Virus record (IMG/VR): IMGVR_UViG_3300034104_004248
Coordinates: 1-35,681 of that record
DNA: 35,681 bases
Strand: one strand, 5' to 3'
Source: a virus
Program-made: the position numbers and the translations under genes
In this document: positions 1-4,146 of the stretch, piece after piece
Layout: every line of letters begins with the position of its first letter
How positions within the stretch are numbered: position 1 is the stretch's first letter
Notes under the pieces: model-generated
Databases searched by the model: none
What the model saw: the letters and a program-made list of their open reading frames with translations, nothing else
What the model was told of the DNA's origin: nothing

Positions 1-278
1 CGGTAGCGGCTTGGCTTTGGCGGCTTAGCCTCCGGCACCGGCTTTGCAACCGGCTCAGCCACCGGCACCATGCCAAAGACCTTGAAGAAAGCATCGGCCA
101 CTGGCTGGCTTGCCGCTTTGTCCACAGGCTTGTCTACAGGCTTTGCAGCCGTCGACCCGCACCGCTTGCACCTGGGCGGGCGGGTCATCAACGCGGCGGC
201 AAAGGTCGTCCGGTAGCCGCAGTGACAGGCTACGGACCAGACGGGCCCGGTTTTGTCGGTTATGGTCCAGTTGTTCAC
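1..278 (-). CDS. Cys-rich small protein, C-terminus beyond window edge
   Basis: Function not recognised. I place the start at a GTG (278-276) overlapping the TGA of the upstream gene in a GTGA junction, a pattern seen elsewhere in this genome; an internal ATG at 188 is the alternative. The N-terminal third has a Cys-His-Cys-Gly segment and, about 20 residues later, a Cys-Lys-Arg-Cys-Gly knuckle, which looks like a small zinc ribbon. The rest is an Ala/Pro/Lys/Val-rich low-complexity tail with repeated Lys-Pro-Val units, probably disordered. The frame is open to base 1, so the C-terminus is missing. Zinc binding is inferred from Cys spacing only. Confidence 0.6.
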   Translation of the reverse strand, partial: MNNWTITDKTGPVWSVACHCGYRTTFAAALMTRPPRCKRCGSTAAKPVDKPVDKAASQPVADAFFKVFGMVPVAEPVAKPVPEAKPPKPSRY

Positions 279-484
279 GGCATCCAGTCCAGTCCAACGT
301 CTGCGTCGGGTTCGGTGTTGCGGTAGCCAGACCCGCCACAGGTCGGGCAGTCAAAGTAGCCGTAGGACAGCGGGTCCCACTGGCGACCCATGCCGCCGCA
401 GGGCTCGCACTCCGGCGGTTCGTCGTCGTCGGGCGGGCTCAAGTAGCGGTCATACGCCAGCCCGTGCGGGTTGCTCTTTGCCAT
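275..484 (-). CDS. Small DnaJ-type zinc-knuckle protein (69 aa)
   Basis: The 69-residue product has two CxxCGGxG knuckles (residues 26-32 and 46-52), the spacing of half of a DnaJ cysteine-rich zinc finger. No J domain is present, so this is a free-standing zinc knuckle rather than a chaperone. The ATG at 484 follows a GGAGG Shine-Dalgarno site six bases away, and the upstream gene ends just before it, pointing to translational coupling. Small proteins of this kind are common in phage early regions and may hold RNA, DNA or a host protein; the actual role is unknown. Zinc binding is inference from the motif. Confidence 0.75.
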   Translation of the reverse strand: MAKSNPHGLAYDRYLSPPDDDEPPECEPCGGMGRQWDPLSYGYFDCPTCGGSGYRNTEPDADVGLDWMP

Positions 485-486
485 GG

Positions 487-663
487 TTAGCCTCCGAACC
501 AGCCGACAGTGCCGGCAATGGACAAGGCGCCGACGACAAACGCGACGATGGCGCAGATGGTCCAGACCACAAGGCGGGTCTGTTCGGCTTGCTGGCAGTC
601 GCACTTCTGGCGCCAACAGCCGCGGCAGGTGTCCCGCAGGTGGTAGTCCTGGTACTTACGCAT
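487..663 (-). CDS. Small single-pass membrane protein with Cys cluster (58 aa)
   Basis: Reading leftward from the ATG at 663 gives 58 residues ending in TAA at 487. Residues 1-30 are polar and contain four closely spaced cysteines (positions 13, 16, 21, 23). Residues 31-54 form one hydrophobic segment rich in Val, Ala, Ile and Gly, so the protein is predicted to sit in the inner membrane with a short cysteine-bearing head. The start overlaps the end of the helix-turn-helix gene by eight bases and the next gene follows after two bases, which supports it as a real member of this operon. No family recognised. Confidence 0.65.
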   Translation of the reverse strand: MRKYQDYHLRDTCRGCWRQKCDCQQAEQTRLVVWTICAIVAFVVGALSIAGTVGWFGG

Positions 664-862
664 TGGTCACCTCGCACAGGTCAGAAGTTTGGCAGCCGTA
701 GACAGCCGCAATGGCCCGCAAGTCGCGCTCGCTCGGCTGGGTCGTGCCAGCCTCCCAGCGGCCTACGGTCCGCAGGCTGCAAGACAGGTCGGCAGCGGCT
801 TGCGCTTGCGTCAGGTTGGCAGCCTCGCGGGCGGCTCTCAGTCGTTTCGGGTCGGGTTGCAT
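656..862 (-). CDS. XRE/Cro-type helix-turn-helix regulator (68 aa)
   Basis: A compact Cro/CI-type DNA-binding domain fills the protein: helix 1 starts near residue 4, the recognition unit lies around residues 15-35 (Leu-Thr-Gln-Ala-Gln then Ser-Leu-Arg-Thr-Val-Gly-Arg-Trp-Glu), followed by the usual Gly-x-x-x-Pro-Ser turn and a last helix (Leu-Arg-Ala-Ile-Ala). The Trp-Glu-x-Gly-x-x-x-Pro signature is typical of the XRE family. The start is the ATG at 862, preceded by AGGAG; a longer frame upstream lacks a ribosome site. It probably controls one of the nearby early promoters, but its operator cannot be identified from sequence alone. Confidence 0.85.
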   Translation of the reverse strand: MQPDPKRLRAAREAANLTQAQAAADLSCSLRTVGRWEAGTTQPSERDLRAIAAVYGCQTSDLCEVTNA

Positions 863-884
863 TGTGTCTCCTGTCGTCAAAGCC

Positions 885-905
885 AAACCCGCAAGGCGCG
901 GGCTT
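885..905 (-). terminator. Candidate weak intrinsic terminator / attenuator
   Basis: On the minus strand an eight-pair stem (AAGCCCGC with GCGGGTTT, one G-U pair) closes a five-base loop and runs into a short T-rich stretch. It lies between the 79-residue orphan gene and the helix-turn-helix gene, so it could reduce read-through into the regulator. The T-tract is short, so termination would be partial. Confidence 0.4.
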
Positions 906-952
906 GGGTCTACCGGCAGCGAGCAGTTTTGCGACTTGCTCGGGTCGGGTGG

Positions 953-1192
953 TTAGGCAACGACAGTCACGCGCCAGTTGTCGCCGTCGCCGGTCAGGTC
1001 GCCCCAGAATGAGCGCGATCCATCATTTTCGTCGCAGGCGTCGTCACTGCTGTGGGACAAGCGATACCGTGCGCCGTCAGCGTCGTTGCCGTCCGGAATC
1101 TCAATGTGGACGATGCGGTTTTCTGCGATCGACAGGTTGATGGCGGCGTCAATGTCGTTGGCATTGTTGCAGATGATGGTCTGGCTGGTCAT
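953..1192 (-). CDS. Hypothetical acidic protein (79 aa)
   Basis: Function not recognised. The 79-residue product starts with an Ile/Asn-rich region and a short alpha-beta pattern (Ala-Ala-Ile-Asn-Leu-Ser, then Ile-Val-His-Ile-Glu-Ile), then becomes rich in Asp and Gly in its second half. The net charge is strongly acidic, as in some phage DNA-mimic or host-takeover proteins, but nothing more specific supports that. The ATG at 1192 has GGGAGA upstream, and a sigma70-like promoter sits at 1241-1270, so this is the first gene of its unit. Confidence 0.7.
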   Translation of the reverse strand: MTSQTIICNNANDIDAAINLSIAENRIVHIEIPDGNDADGARYRLSHSSDDACDENDGSRSFWGDLTGDGDNWRVTVVA

Positions 1193-1240
1193 GGTGGTGT
1201 CTCCCGTCAGCGTTTGGCGTCATTGCCTGCTGACATAAGG

Positions 1241-1270
1241 AGTATGCAGGACAGTCTGACCACAAGTCAA
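1241..1270 (-). promoter_or_regulatory. Candidate sigma70 promoter, leftward
   Basis: Minus strand: TTGACT (1270-1265), 18-base spacer, CATACT (1246-1241). It lies about 50 bases upstream of the ATG at 1192 and just downstream of the strong terminator at 1319-1351, where a new transcription unit would be expected to start. Five of six bases match at -35 and four of six at -10. Confidence 0.55.
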
Positions 1271-1318
1271 GCTGTCTACCTAACTATTTTGCAGGGGGTG
1301 TACGATTGTCAAAAACAC

Positions 1319-1351
1319 AAAAGCCCGCAGCGGGTTAGGCTGCGGGCTTTT
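1319..1351 (-). terminator. Strong intrinsic terminator after the HTH gene
   Basis: A perfect 12-pair stem (AAAAGCCCGCAG with CTGCGGGCTTTT) encloses a nine-base loop. On the minus strand it is followed by a T-rich run, and it lies 28 bases after the stop of the gene ending at 1379. The A/T ends could also allow action on the other strand, but the rightward strand carries no gene here. Confidence 0.85.
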
Positions 1352-1378
1352 GCGTTGGGGTTGGGTTGTCGGGAAGGT

Positions 1379-1702
1379 CTACGCCGCGCAATCCTCGCGC
1401 CACTGCTGGATCGTGATGCGAGCCCGATGCGGCGGGCACTCGGCCTTGTACTTCTCAAGCTCTGCGGTCAGGCGCTTGTCGTCCTCTGGCGCACAGACCA
1501 GGACAGCCGGTTTGACGCCGTACACACGGGCGATTGCGTGCAGCCTGCCGCCCATCAGAGCCAGGGAACCGCGCTCGGCGTGCCTGAGGGTGGTTATGCC
1601 GACTCTCGCCCGTTGTGCGGCAACCTCGGCGGTAATACCGGCACGCTGGCGGTAGTCAATCAGGTGCAGGGGGTGGGCTTGTGGGAGGGTAACGATGGTC
1701 AT
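1379..1702 (-). CDS. XRE-type helix-turn-helix protein with C-terminal tail (107 aa)
   Basis: Residues about 10-65 form an XRE-like helix-turn-helix: Tyr-Arg-Gln-Arg-Ala-Gly, Ala-Ala-Gln-Arg-Ala-Arg-Val-Gly, Thr-Thr-Leu-Arg-His-Ala-Glu-Arg-Gly, then a helix ending in Ile-Ala-Arg-Val-Tyr-Gly-Val-Lys-Pro. The last 40 residues are a charged tail with two cysteines. The ATG at 1702 was chosen because the domain begins right after it and AAAGG lies upstream. It is the last gene before the strong terminator at 1319-1351. It is the second small regulator in this early region; target and role (repressor or activator) cannot be told from the sequence. Confidence 0.8.
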   Translation of the reverse strand: MTIVTLPQAHPLHLIDYRQRAGITAEVAAQRARVGITTLRHAERGSLALMGGRLHAIARVYGVKPAVLVCAPEDDKRLTAELEKYKAECPPHRARITIQQWREDCAA

Positions 1703-1751
1703 GTTGTGCCTTTGAGCGTGATAGGTATGCGCTCCCCACCGGTGGAGGTTG

Positions 1752-2138
1752 TTACCAGCGATTGGTGGACGGGCGAGCGGGAACCGCGTACTTGCGACCG
1801 TCGGGCATGTGGACATAGAACGGAGCGCCGCGAGGGTCGCCTTGCAGTTCCAAGGTCATGCCAGCGGACTGCGCGGCCTTGACGGCCAACTTGTCGATGC
1901 GGCAGGCGGGACAGATGCCGGCGCGGGACAATGCACGCGCAAAGGTGCGGGACTCGCAAGACTTGCAGGCGAGCAGCTTCTTTTGCGGGGCACCGTCGTA
2001 CTCGAACGGGTATCCGCCGCTGCATTGCAGTTCGCTCAAGCGGTGGGCAGACGTGGCATACCGCAGCAGGGCAAGCGCGGTATCTGCATGGTCGGCCAAG
2101 GTGGTCAGGAACTCATTGCGCCAGGTTGTGTAGGACAT
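1752..2138 (-). CDS. Putative zinc-ribbon protein (128 aa)
   Basis: Function not recognised. An N-terminal helical region (residues 1-40) is followed by a Cys-x2-Cys pair (Cys-Lys-Ser-Cys) and, about 20 residues later, a second pair (Cys-Pro-Ala-Cys), consistent with one four-Cys zinc site. The C-terminal part reads like a small beta domain (Leu-Glu-Leu-Gln, Tyr-Val-His-Met-Pro-Asp-Gly-Arg). The ATG at 2138 is preferred over an in-frame TTG four codons upstream because GGAG sits at proper distance before it. A hammerhead ribozyme (2167-2223) lies directly upstream, so the mRNA of this gene would gain a new 5' end by self-cleavage 59 bases before the start codon. Confidence 0.7.
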   Translation of the reverse strand: MSYTTWRNEFLTTLADHADTALALLRYATSAHRLSELQCSGGYPFEYDGAPQKKLLACKSCESRTFARALSRAGICPACRIDKLAVKAAQSAGMTLELQGDPRGAPFYVHMPDGRKYAVPARPSTNRW

Positions 2139-2166
2139 AGGGTGCTCCAAGGGTAGAAGGTGCTGA

Positions 2167-2223
2167 AGGCCATCTTCAGGCAGCGCATCACGCTGCTACA
2201 GCCGCAGTGGGCTGTTTCGGCCT
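2167..2223 (-). ncRNA. Hammerhead ribozyme (type II), copy C
   Basis: Minus-strand RNA, 5' to 3': stem II strand AGGCC (2223-2219), GAA (2218-2216), stem III ACAGCC / GGCUGU (2215-2210 and 2203-2198) with a six-base loop, cleavage base A17 (2197, a GUA site), stem I GCAGCG / CGCUGC (2196-2191 and 2185-2180) with five-base loop UGAUG, core CUGAAGA (2179-2173), one extra U (2172), and stem II strand GGCCU (2171-2167). All conserved hammerhead positions C3-A9, G12-A14 and A15.1-U16.1 are met. The element begins ten bases after the stop codon at 2233 and ends 28 bases before the ATG at 2138. The unpaired U next to A9 is unusual and could lower activity. Confidence 0.82.
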
Positions 2224-2232
2224 GTTTGTAGG

Positions 2233-2493
2233 CTAGGCTTGCCAACCGTTGCCCAGCTCACCCGATGCAATGCGAGCCGGAATCGCTTGAAGGTAGTCCA
2301 CGATGTCAACGCACAGCCGGCGTGCATAGGCCGCCTTGTCGGCGTGGCTGGCAAAGGACTGACCAGCGCCCCAGCGCATTGCGTCGTCGATGTCGCGGGG
2401 CCAGACGCCTGCGTCGATTGCGGCAATCTCGGCTGTCAGGTCGGCTGTCTCCTGCTTGCGGCTGTCTGCTTTGGTGCGGTTGTAGATGGCCAT
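2233..2493 (-). CDS. Hypothetical helical protein (86 aa)
   Basis: Function not recognised. The 86-residue product is predicted mostly helical: a charged N-terminal segment (Asn-Arg-Thr-Lys-Ala-Asp-Ser-Arg), an Ala/Glu-rich helix, an Asp-Ile-Asp-Asp turn, and two further helices ending in Tyr-Leu-Gln-Ala-Ile. No cysteine knuckle or membrane segment is present. The ATG at 2493 has GGAG eight to eleven bases upstream. The gene sits between two hammerhead ribozymes (2521-2573 upstream, 2167-2223 downstream), so self-cleavage at both would release it as a monocistronic mRNA. Confidence 0.75.
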   Translation of the reverse strand: MAIYNRTKADSRKQETADLTAEIAAIDAGVWPRDIDDAMRWGAGQSFASHADKAAYARRLCVDIVDYLQAIPARIASGELGNGWQA

Positions 2494-2520
2494 GTGCTGC
2501 TCCTATTGTGTCGGGTAACT

Positions 2521-2573
2521 GCCCATCGTCAGTGCAGGCGATACCTGCAGACACCCTTGCGGGTGTTTCGGGC
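2521..2573 (-). ncRNA. Hammerhead ribozyme (type II), copy B
   Basis: Minus-strand RNA: stem II strand GCCC (2573-2570), GAA (2569-2567), stem III ACACCC / GGGUGU (2566-2561 and 2556-2551) with GCAA tetraloop (GNRA type), cleavage base C17 (2550, a GUC site), stem I UGCAGG / CCUGCA (2549-2544 and 2538-2533) with loop UAUCG, core CUGACGA (2532-2526), one extra U (2525), stem II strand GGGC (2524-2521). The ribozyme begins on the very next base after the TGA of the upstream gene (2576-2574), so a terminating ribosome would cover its 5' strand. It ends 28 bases before the ATG at 2493. Confidence 0.85.
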
Positions 2574-2903
2574 TCAATACGCGCTGTAGTGCGCTGTCTC
2601 GTTTGGCTCACGCGAACCGGGCCAGCCACAAACCACGTCTTCAACCGCTTCAATGGCTGACACCAGCGCCAAGAACCCATCCTCATCATCGGGCTGGCAA
2701 AGCGGTACACAACGCTGCAGCTCGCTCAGTGCCTCGGAATAGTCGCTGTAGGTCATGTGCGACCACTCGCCGCACTGCAACTTGTACAAGGGGCAGCCTA
2801 GGCCGCCATGCCAGTCTGTGGCAGTGAAAGCAGCAGCGAGCAGATCGCAGCTTGGCTCGTCAACGTGGTAGGTGCCTGCGGTCAGTTTGTAGGTGGTGGC
2901 CAT
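2574..2903 (-). CDS. Hypothetical protein (109 aa)
   Basis: Function not recognised. The 109-residue product has five cysteines in no clear zinc-ribbon spacing, an aromatic-rich middle (Trp-His-Gly-Gly-Leu-Gly-Cys, Trp-Ser-His-Met-Thr-Tyr-Ser-Asp-Tyr), and an acidic helical stretch (Gln-Pro-Asp-Asp-Glu-Asp-Gly-Phe, Ala-Ile-Glu-Ala-Val-Glu-Asp). It is likely a small soluble cytoplasmic protein. The ATG at 2903 has GGAG upstream, and a TTGACA promoter element lies at 2968-2973, so it is probably the first gene of its unit. Its stop codon abuts the hammerhead ribozyme at 2521-2573. Confidence 0.75.
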   Translation of the reverse strand: MATTYKLTAGTYHVDEPSCDLLAAAFTATDWHGGLGCPLYKLQCGEWSHMTYSDYSEALSELQRCVPLCQPDDEDGFLALVSAIEAVEDVVCGWPGSREPNETAHYSAY

Positions 2904-2943
2904 GGTCTGTTGCTCCGGTAGGCCGCAGTATCGCGGCAGGTGA

Positions 2944-2973
2944 ACCCTAACAAACGCCAGCCTATGCTGTCAA
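2944..2973 (-). promoter_or_regulatory. Candidate promoter, leftward
   Basis: Minus strand: perfect TTGACA (2973-2968), then 18 bases and TAGGGT (2949-2944), a poor -10. The TAGGG word of the -10 recurs nearby at 3110-3134, so this promoter may rely on an activator or be repressed by a protein reading that word (inference). The gene starting at 2903 is downstream. Confidence 0.4.
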
Positions 2974-3046
2974 GTAGGGTCAGGTGAGAAAGTTAGCCAA
3001 GCAAGAACAGTGTGTTGCAAGTTTGGCTGTCTAGGCAGGGCGGAAT

Positions 3047-3073
3047 GTGATCACGCGACTTTCGCAGGATCAC
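3047..3073. repeat. Interrupted inverted repeat, possible operator
   Basis: GTGATC and GATCAC arms enclose an inner GCG/CGC pair of arms with a five-base loop. It lies in the 386-base gene-free stretch 2904-3289, upstream of the promoter element at 2968-2973. A dyad of this size suits binding of a dimeric helix-turn-helix protein such as those encoded nearby; a hairpin role is also possible. Confidence 0.4.
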
Positions 3074-3109
3074 GCTGCTTTGCCGGAATCCGCTCCTGGC
3101 ATGGCGAAT

Positions 3110-3134
3110 CCCTAGTATCCCTACTGCTACCCTA
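3110..3134. repeat. Three CCCTA (TAGGG) words spaced 9 and 11 bases
   Basis: CCCTA occurs at 3110-3114, 3119-3123 and 3130-3134, roughly one helical turn apart; further copies lie at 2945-2949 and, inverted, at 2975-2979. The clustering within an otherwise empty region suggests iteron-like protein binding sites, either for replication initiation or for control of the leftward promoter. Confidence 0.35.
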
Positions 3135-3242
3135 GACTTGTGTTAGATAACCGCTCTTGACACCTGGGCGTACCAATGTCGACAAGCGGGGAAGGCAGGA
3201 AGGGGCGCAAGGTGCAGGAGGTTGGACAGTTCGGCAGCCTAG

Positions 3243-3262
3243 GTGGGGTTTGGAGGCCCCAC
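3243..3262. other. Hairpin in the gene-free stretch 2904-3289
   Basis: GTGGGG and CCCCAC arms with an eight-base loop lie 28 bases past the stop codon at 3290. Neither strand has a T-tract, so it is at best a 3' mRNA-stabilising hairpin. I see no protein-coding gene in 2904-3289. Confidence 0.35.
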
Positions 3263-3289
3263 TTGGCACAACCTGGACTGCAAAACCAC

Positions 3290-3511
3290 TCACCCCGGCA
3301 GCGCATGGATGCCCTTGTAGGTCGGCTTGCCCTTGCAACCAATGGACTTCCAAGCGGCAACGCAGGCAGGACCGTCAATCAGGCAGGTCTGTCCACCTGC
3401 CATGGTGCGGTCGATAGAGGCGGTGAAGTTTGCCAGCTTGGTTGGGTCAGACGCCCATGGGAAGGCTTTGAGGCCGTCAATCCAAGCGGTGCGGAAAGCG
3501 GTCTTTGTCAT
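3290..3511 (-). CDS. Hypothetical protein (73 aa)
   Basis: Function not recognised. The 73-residue product is a small soluble protein with an amphipathic N-terminal half (Phe-Arg-Thr-Ala-Trp-Ile-Asp-Gly-Leu-Lys) and three cysteines in the second half around short hydrophobic patches (Cys-Leu-Ile-Asp-Gly-Pro-Ala-Cys-Val-Ala-Ala-Trp). It ends with a basic Gly/Lys-rich segment. The ATG at 3511 has AGGAG upstream. The hammerhead ribozyme at 3546-3597 ends 35 bases before the start, so this gene would be translated from an mRNA whose 5' end is made by self-cleavage. Confidence 0.65.
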   Translation of the reverse strand: MTKTAFRTAWIDGLKAFPWASDPTKLANFTASIDRTMAGGQTCLIDGPACVAAWKSIGCKGKPTYKGIHALPG

Positions 3512-3545
3512 GGTGAGGTTGCTCCTAAGTTGTGGATTGGGTTGT

Positions 3546-3597
3546 GGTCTCGTCAGTGCCTGCGCTACAGGCAGACCGTCCGGAGACGGTTTCGACC
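3546..3597 (-). ncRNA. Hammerhead ribozyme (type II), copy A
   Basis: The cleanest copy. Minus-strand RNA: stem II strand GGUC (3597-3594), GAA (3593-3591), stem III ACCGUC / GACGGU (3590-3585 and 3580-3575) with UCCG tetraloop (UNCG type), cleavage base C17 (3574, a GUC site), stem I UGCCUG / CAGGCA (3573-3568 and 3562-3557) with loop UAGCG, core CUGACGA (3556-3550), stem II strand GACC (3549-3546). All core positions fit the hammerhead consensus with no insertion. Scission is expected between 3574 and 3573. It lies three bases after the stop codon at 3601-3603. Confidence 0.9.
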
Positions 3598-3600
3598 TGA

Positions 3601-3888
3601 TCAGATGCCGATCGGCTCAAGTGGAAGTGCTTTGTGCCCAACGATCCAATAGCAAACCGCCGGCCCAGCTTGAGCGATGTGCACGATCAGGTCGGTGTTG
3701 CGCTCATTCACCCACGCCTGCACAGCATCACGATGCGCTGCTTGACGAGCTGCACAGCGGTGCATCGGTTTGATCGCAGAGTAGTTGGTGCTGATTGTCG
3801 TGGTGGTGGTCTCAATGACAGCAAAGCGCCCAACGGGGCTGGCTGTCACGGTGCTGTTTTTCTTGTTGAGCTTGGTTCGGATGAGCAT
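3601..3888 (-). CDS. Hypothetical basic protein (95 aa)
   Basis: Function not recognised. The 95-residue product opens with a Lys/Arg/Asn-rich segment and then a Thr-rich beta-like stretch (seven Thr within about ten residues near position 30), followed by an Ala/Arg/His-rich helix (residues 45-60) and a hydrophobic C-terminus with Trp and Pro. The base-rich N-terminus could contact nucleic acid, but no known fold is visible. The ATG at 3888 has GAGG upstream. The stop codon lies three bases before hammerhead ribozyme copy A. Confidence 0.65.
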   Translation of the reverse strand: MLIRTKLNKKNSTVTASPVGRFAVIETTTTTISTNYSAIKPMHRCAARQAAHRDAVQAWVNERNTDLIVHIAQAGPAVCYWIVGHKALPLEPIGI

Positions 3889-3927
3889 GGTTTGTGCCTC
3901 AGTGCGTTGCAGGTTGTGGGTTGTGTT

Positions 3928-4146
3928 TCAGAAACAAGGCTCAATCATGGCGAGAATGTCGCTGTATGGCCGTCCAACGTGGTTAGCGTAGACCTCAACT
4001 ACATGCTCCCAACCGTCTTTGTGGTCGGTTCCGTCAGTGCGAACGCTGTCACAGACGCAGAAGATGATTCCGTTCTCGTCAATAGCGATCTTGTCGACCG
4101 TGTTGTTGGCATTCAGGTGAGTGTTGAAGATGTGGTTGTAGACCAT
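3928..4146 (-). CDS. Hypothetical protein, first gene of the leftward early operon (72 aa)
   Basis: Function not recognised. The 72-residue acidic product has an Asn-rich N-terminus, a beta-hairpin-like stretch (Ile-Ala-Ile-Asp-Glu-Asn-Gly-Ile-Ile-Phe-Cys-Val-Cys), an Asp-Gly-Thr-Asp-His-Lys-Asp-Gly turn and a C-terminal helix ending in Cys-Phe. It is the gene next to the divergent control region and the candidate promoter at 4193-4221, so it is probably among the first proteins made after infection, a position often held by host-takeover proteins (inference). GAGG precedes the ATG at 4146. Confidence 0.7.
   Translation of the reverse strand: MVYNHIFNTHLNANNTVDKIAIDENGIIFCVCDSVRTDGTDHKDGWEHVVEVYANHVGRPYSDILAMIEPCF

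Follow-up and report, generated by a model that had tools for sequence, protein, structure and literature searches.

An array of type II hammerhead ribozymes between small phage genes, and the placement of such ribozymes at stop codons

Type II hammerhead ribozymes, a permutation common in bacteria, were described by Perreault et al. in 2011 (PMC3088659). The same authors reported clustered hammerheads flanking prophage genes, with a triple around ardA in Agrobacterium tumefaciens and tandem arrays in Azorhizobium caulinodans and Clostridium scindens. They observed cleavage of three tandem arrays, one of them triple, in vitro and of one array in E. coli, and proposed that the ribozymes divide long phage transcripts into messages the length of an operon or a gene. 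A pseudoknot that joins loop I to the 3′ tail by at least four pairs was found in the majority of type II hammerheads, but not in all of them. In the haloviruses HF1 and HF2, an RNA 5′ end was mapped near the cut site of the hammerhead called HHphage (PMC3088659). Hammerheads in phage genomes are also covered by reviews from 2017 (PMC6155905) and 2020 (PMC7761336), the first of which notes that they flank small unconserved ORFs and leaves their role open.

We analysed the IMG/VR virus record IMGVR_UViG_3300034104_004248 over its 35,681 bases, referred to here as the window. A first-pass annotation had presented several hammerheads spread along one operon as an arrangement not yet described, a view that the 2011 report does not allow. 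Like the prophage arrays, the window carries several hammerheads between small phage genes, namely three copies on the same strand. It differs from them in the phage and the genes concerned, in that cleavage was demonstrated there and is predicted here, and in that its copies are of a subclass with fixed geometry that lacks the pseudoknot of loop I with the 3′ tail. With the Rfam family RF02276 (Hammerhead_II) the window copies share the circular permutation, the core and the helices; they differ from it in a short, 5-nt loop I and in an extra U after A9 in two copies (B and C below). HHphage resembles them by lying just upstream of the start codon of an early phage gene, and differs in being a single core-variant copy from viruses of halophilic archaea.

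The phage and its three hammerheads

In the plus-strand block, matches to a terminase large subunit, to a portal protein and to a family of internal virion proteins identify the window as phage DNA. Close relatives among isolated phages were sought and rejected: the left region has no nucleotide match to them, and the terminase and portal match theirs at only 19–24% identity. On the minus strand, the reading of ORFs and ribosome-binding sites gives a block of 11 small genes and 10 junctions (275–4146). Two of the 11 genes encode HTH regulators, the sole recognised functions of the cluster, and these lie further along it; the genes that flank the ribozymes have no convincing Pfam or PHROG match. 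Since the genes are small, are accompanied by HTH regulators and stand on the strand opposite the terminase and portal, they may reasonably be taken for early genes. The features, in the direction of transcription, are the following (R1 is the covariance model presented in the next section).

3601..3888, minus strand: gene upstream of hammerhead A, 95 aa, stop codon 3 nt before the ribozyme; no Pfam match, PHROG matches unconvincing
3545..3597, minus strand: hammerhead A, type II (Rfam RF02276, R1, fold)
3290..3511, minus strand: gene downstream of hammerhead A, 73 aa, start codon 33–34 nt past the ribozyme; no match in Pfam or PHROG searches
2574..2903, minus strand: gene upstream of hammerhead B, 109 aa, stop codon abutting the ribozyme (0 nt); homologue in the related phage L003 with 84% protein identity
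2520..2573, minus strand: hammerhead B, type II, its first base directly 3′ of the upstream stop codon (Rfam RF02276, R1, fold)
2233..2493, minus strand: gene between hammerheads B and C, 86 aa, start 27 nt after B and stop 9 nt before C; no match in Pfam or PHROG searches
2167..2223, minus strand: hammerhead C, type II (R1, strict descriptor)
1752..2138, minus strand: gene downstream of hammerhead C, 128 aa, with CxxC motifs

Elsewhere in the cluster, a bidirectional terminator-like hairpin (GCCCGCAGC/GCTGCGGGC, with A and T runs on its flanks) at 1314–1356 parts the HTH gene 1379–1702 from the genes on its left; it has a weak Rfam match as a threonine leader.

Each copy reads, from 5′ to 3′, as a 4-bp stem II strand, GAA, A15.1, the stem III hairpin, the U-H cut site, a 17-nt stem I hairpin, CUGANGA (followed by the extra U in B and C) and the closing stem II strand. 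Stems I and III are closed by loops and stem II is open in all three copies, which is the type II permutation, and the core is complete, with GAA-A, the NUH triplets GUC, GUC and GUA, and CUGANGA with C, C and A at N7 (A, B and C, respectively). Hammerhead A has GGUC/GACC as stem II (3594–3597 with 3546–3549), CCGUC/GACGG as stem III, UGCCUG/CAGGCA as stem I and UAGCG as loop I; with GUC and CUGACGA as core elements, its predicted cut falls between 3574 and 3573, and the hammerhead is the minimum-energy fold in a 64-nt context. Hammerhead B is built from stem II GCCC/GGGC, stem III CACCC/GGGUG, stem I UGCAGG/CCUGCA and loop I UAUCG, again with GUC and CUGACGA, and its predicted cut lies between 2550 and 2549. 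In hammerhead C, stem II is GGCC/GGCC, stem III CAGCC/GGCUG with a 6-nt loop, stem I GCAGCG/CGCUGC and loop I UGAUG; here the NUH site is GUA, the core is CUGAAGA and the predicted cut lies between 2197 and 2196. The core, the complementary stems and the R1 matches thus agree with the initial reading of type II hammerheads at three places on the minus strand, and its cut sites, read from the sequence as after 3574, 2550 and 2197, are those predicted here. Its idea of one ribozyme per gene junction fails, as only 3 of the 10 junctions in the cluster are occupied.

Copy C stands apart. In a longer context its minimum-energy fold differs from the hammerhead, the core being sequestered in a CUGAAG...CUUCAG hairpin, a result to be read with the caveat that folding programs leave tertiary stabilisation out. 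In this alternative (2162–2235, minus strand), the CUGAAG of the core pairs with a CUUCAG located just downstream of stem II, and the fold could mark either an inactive copy or possibly a switch. Copy C also has no A after stem II, the base common at that position. Given the preferred alternative fold and the missing A, copy C may be slow, weak or inactive.

Detection and conservation of pairing

A strict descriptor covering types I, II and III picks out exactly these three hammerheads over the 35.7 kb of the window; 60 shuffled windows gave no match. The Rfam model RF02276 aligns end to end with two window copies, A at 36.0 bits (E 7e-4) and B at 30.8 bits (E 0.017), and copy C is absent from the Rfam listing in the window search. 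None of the three copies reaches the gathering cut-off of 37 bits, which is a database threshold and not a biological feature. Because Rfam scored A and B under this cut-off and did not list C, other viral copies were gathered by means of a DNA pattern in which nothing but the core, the closing pairs and the flanks of loop I is fixed. These collection scans used a type II pattern, and the frequencies of types I, II and III are therefore not comparable from them.

The covariance model R1 was then built from 51 viral copies, excluding the window and its relatives L003 and L004. It gives copy A 69.0 bits (E 1.2e-22), copy B 55.2 bits (E 1.2e-17) and copy C 42.1 bits (E 7.6e-13), the next best site in the window scoring 12.1 bits (E 0.07); the window sequences entered this test only through the search pattern, which had been designed from them. 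According to these scores, the sub-threshold Rfam values reflect a narrow Rfam model. In 15 array loci, Rfam at its gathering threshold reports three hammerheads only, and R1 finds 59 in the 13 of these loci on which it was also run. The Rfam gathering threshold therefore misses nearly all of these phage type II hammerheads.

Pairing at the positions left free by the pattern is conserved throughout the collection. All five variable pairs of stem I are formed in 150 of 152 distinct viral-contig matches (shuffled mean 5.7, maximum 13), and all four inner pairs of stem III in 126 of the 152 (shuffled mean 8.4). In the ungapped alignment of the 51 copies, to which no filter on variable pairs was applied and which excludes the window, L003 and L004, 99.4% of pair cells are standard (64.8% when shuffled). 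Both sides have changed in 270 cells (76.7 when shuffled), at 12 of the 16 pairs, and sliding the register by 1–3 columns lowers pairing to 28–41%. That the core columns are invariant in this alignment is a consequence of the pattern and was left out of the evidence. Two stable hairpins are present per intergenic gap, in all three gaps of the window, and one could imagine that, instead of being ribozymes, they terminate or attenuate transcription or bind proteins. However, a U-tract is absent, the three places yield no call of a terminator-like site, and the core pattern predicts complementary stems in nearly every viral match, which plain hairpins would not account for. Terminators and attenuators were rejected because U-tracts are missing and the core predicts the stems, and we give the whole explanation next to no credence.

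Two close relatives of the window phage are present in IMG/VR. L004 has the same three ribozymes, and L003 has three ribozymes at corresponding places. In copy A of L003, two pairs of stem III (C-G to A-U and U-A to C-G) and two pairs of stem I (U-A to C-G and C-G to U-G) have changed relative to the window without a single broken pair, and the neighbouring genes on both sides are unrelated to those of the window. Copy B of L003 is nearly identical to window copy B; copy C of L003 is a different, more canonical hammerhead (63.6 bits with R1). The expectation that related phages would show stems that vary with pairing kept is borne out by the compensatory changes in stems III and I of L003 copy A, and together the window stems, the 51-copy alignment and L003 uphold the early reading of different stem sequences with retained pairing as covariation.

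The change of neighbouring genes between the window and L003 also bears on another explanation, by which mobile gene cassettes carry the ribozymes along as passengers, decayed or neutral, that play no part in expression today. It is in keeping with this explanation that copies within one phage can be near-identical (L025, L154), suggesting duplication, and that copy C is atypical. Against it, the core and complementary stems co-occur, with compensatory change, in very different phages, and the pairing of L003 copy A is kept between unrelated genes; we judge the passenger explanation quite unlikely. Joint movement of each ribozyme with the gene upstream of it fits the comparison of the window with L003, and was dropped as a general claim because, over all loci, ribozyme identity is similar when only the upstream neighbour is homologous (0.77) and when only the downstream neighbour is (0.74).

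Arrays in other phages and anchoring to stop codons

With R1, 107 copies were found in 28 viral records that hold two or more each, and all matches lie on one strand per record (28/28). The number of copies per contig reaches 11 (G004, also L025), followed by 9 in G003 and 8 in G016, and a reversed-pattern control gave no match in nine multi-copy records. The geometry is nearly fixed: stem II has 4 bp in 142 of 152 viral copies, of which 28 have the extra U, almost every stem I hairpin is 17 nt long, and the base after stem II is A in 130 of 175. This subclass is partly defined by the search, since the pattern required this loop I. A pseudoknot between loop I and the 3′ tail was rejected for these copies, as complementarity is not above that of shuffled sequences (at least four pairs in 35 of 167 viral copies, shuffled mean 39). 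The tertiary contact must then presumably be of another kind, perhaps one that involves loop I and the A after stem II.

Several arrays deserve a description of their own. In L025 (173–5156, minus strand), whose whole contig is G004, eleven type II hammerheads lie within about 5 kb, several of them near-identical and with small genes between them; two of these genes are paralogous neighbours, which suggests duplication of gene-plus-ribozyme units. L154 and L167 share an identical 6.65-kb stretch with three hammerheads, from assemblies named Phycicoccus jejuensis and Streptomyces iakyrus (both NRRL strains), and this identity may come either from a shared phage or from cross-contamination between sequencing libraries. 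Seven loci from bins labelled Gastranaerophilales and other gut bacteria (L148, L152, L153, L169, L176, L205 and L245) have a conserved set of small genes (about 90–110 aa) between two hammerheads, with a repeated spacing of about 370 nt. Finally, L211 contains a mixed array (2132–3804, minus strand) of three type I and one type II hammerheads on the same strand.

These ribozymes are placed tightly relative to the upstream gene. Among 175 viral copies, 118 start between −2 and +4 nt from a same-strand upstream stop codon (5.4 for random positions, 20 on the opposite strand), which is 69% of the 171 copies with a resolvable upstream stop. In 39 copies the last base of the stop codon, most often UAG, is the first base of stem II. 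Uniform placement in the same gaps, with 22 nt reserved for a ribosome-binding site, fails to explain this anchoring, as it yields a mean of 11.9 and a maximum of 23 copies and 27 of 50 were observed. The cut lies at a median of 26 nt past the stop codon, and the next start codon at a median of 25 nt past the ribozyme. In the window, the ribozymes begin 0–9 nt after the stop codon and finish 27–34 nt before the next start codon. The anchoring could in part be a by-product of genome compactness. A limited literature search retrieved no report of it. The tight stop-codon anchoring, the set size of up to 11 per contig, the fixed-geometry subclass without the pseudoknot and the near-complete loss at the Rfam gathering threshold are what this analysis adds.

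Such a position raises the question of translation-gated cutting. According to this explanation, a terminating ribosome covers stem II and G12–A14 and blocks folding, and cutting takes place mainly on messages that are no longer translated, the ribozyme being a sensor of upstream translation. The share of copies next to the stop, the copies in which stop codon and stem II share a base and an anchoring above chance placement speak for it. However, termination is fast, a required short mature 3′ end would give the same position, and window copy C lies 9 nt from the stop. We consider both the gating itself and the restriction to untranslated messages unlikely; if gating were true, the phage would separate or retire its messages gene by gene.

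Probable cutting of the leftward transcript

In our opinion, these type II hammerheads probably cut a leftward polycistronic phage RNA between genes. This model builds on the observed identity, strand and positions of the ribozymes, on their conserved pairing and on their stop-codon anchoring, and is supported by the direct precedent of Perreault et al. (PMC3088659). We infer self-cleavage and the end chemistry of the window copies from the hammerhead family. The leftward RNA would be cut at A, B and C. The two closed hairpins lie on either side of the cut, stem II being the open one; the upstream message would accordingly end flush in hairpin III and the downstream message start flush with hairpin I. 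The upstream message would thus carry a 2′,3′-cyclic phosphate about 24–35 nt past its stop codon, and the downstream message a 5′-OH on the stem I hairpin, followed by the ribosome-binding site. From what is generally known of RNA decay, such hairpin ends would be expected to protect the products from 3′ exonucleases and from 5′-end-dependent decay. The likely outcome would be separate mRNAs whose short hairpin-capped ends resist exonucleases and 5′-monophosphate-dependent decay, and neighbouring genes could then differ in message lifetime. This effect of the cuts on mRNA stability is one that we only infer.

Some observations count against the transcript-cutting model, namely the fold of copy C, its missing A, compactness and the partial occupancy of junctions; with 3 of 10 junctions bearing a ribozyme, the cuts would leave some genes unseparated. 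In addition, 4 of 18 consensus hammerheads were inactive when tested by Perreault et al. (PMC3088659). Alternatively, paired ribozymes could release single-gene RNAs that RtcB, or the reverse of the cleavage reaction, joins at their ends into circles. The cuts at B and C would indeed free a 353-nt RNA that holds one whole gene and has ligatable ends, but spliced or circular products were sought in such arrays and none was found (PMC3088659), and circle formation seems to us very unlikely.

The transcript-cutting model leads to precise expectations. Messages should have 3′ ends about 26 nt after stop codons, with a possible influence of upstream translation, and in the window phage 5′-OH ends should fall roughly 55–65 nt before start codons. 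A large set of phage hammerheads pinned to stop codons therefore turns the statement that these ribozymes may process transcripts into specific, testable predictions.
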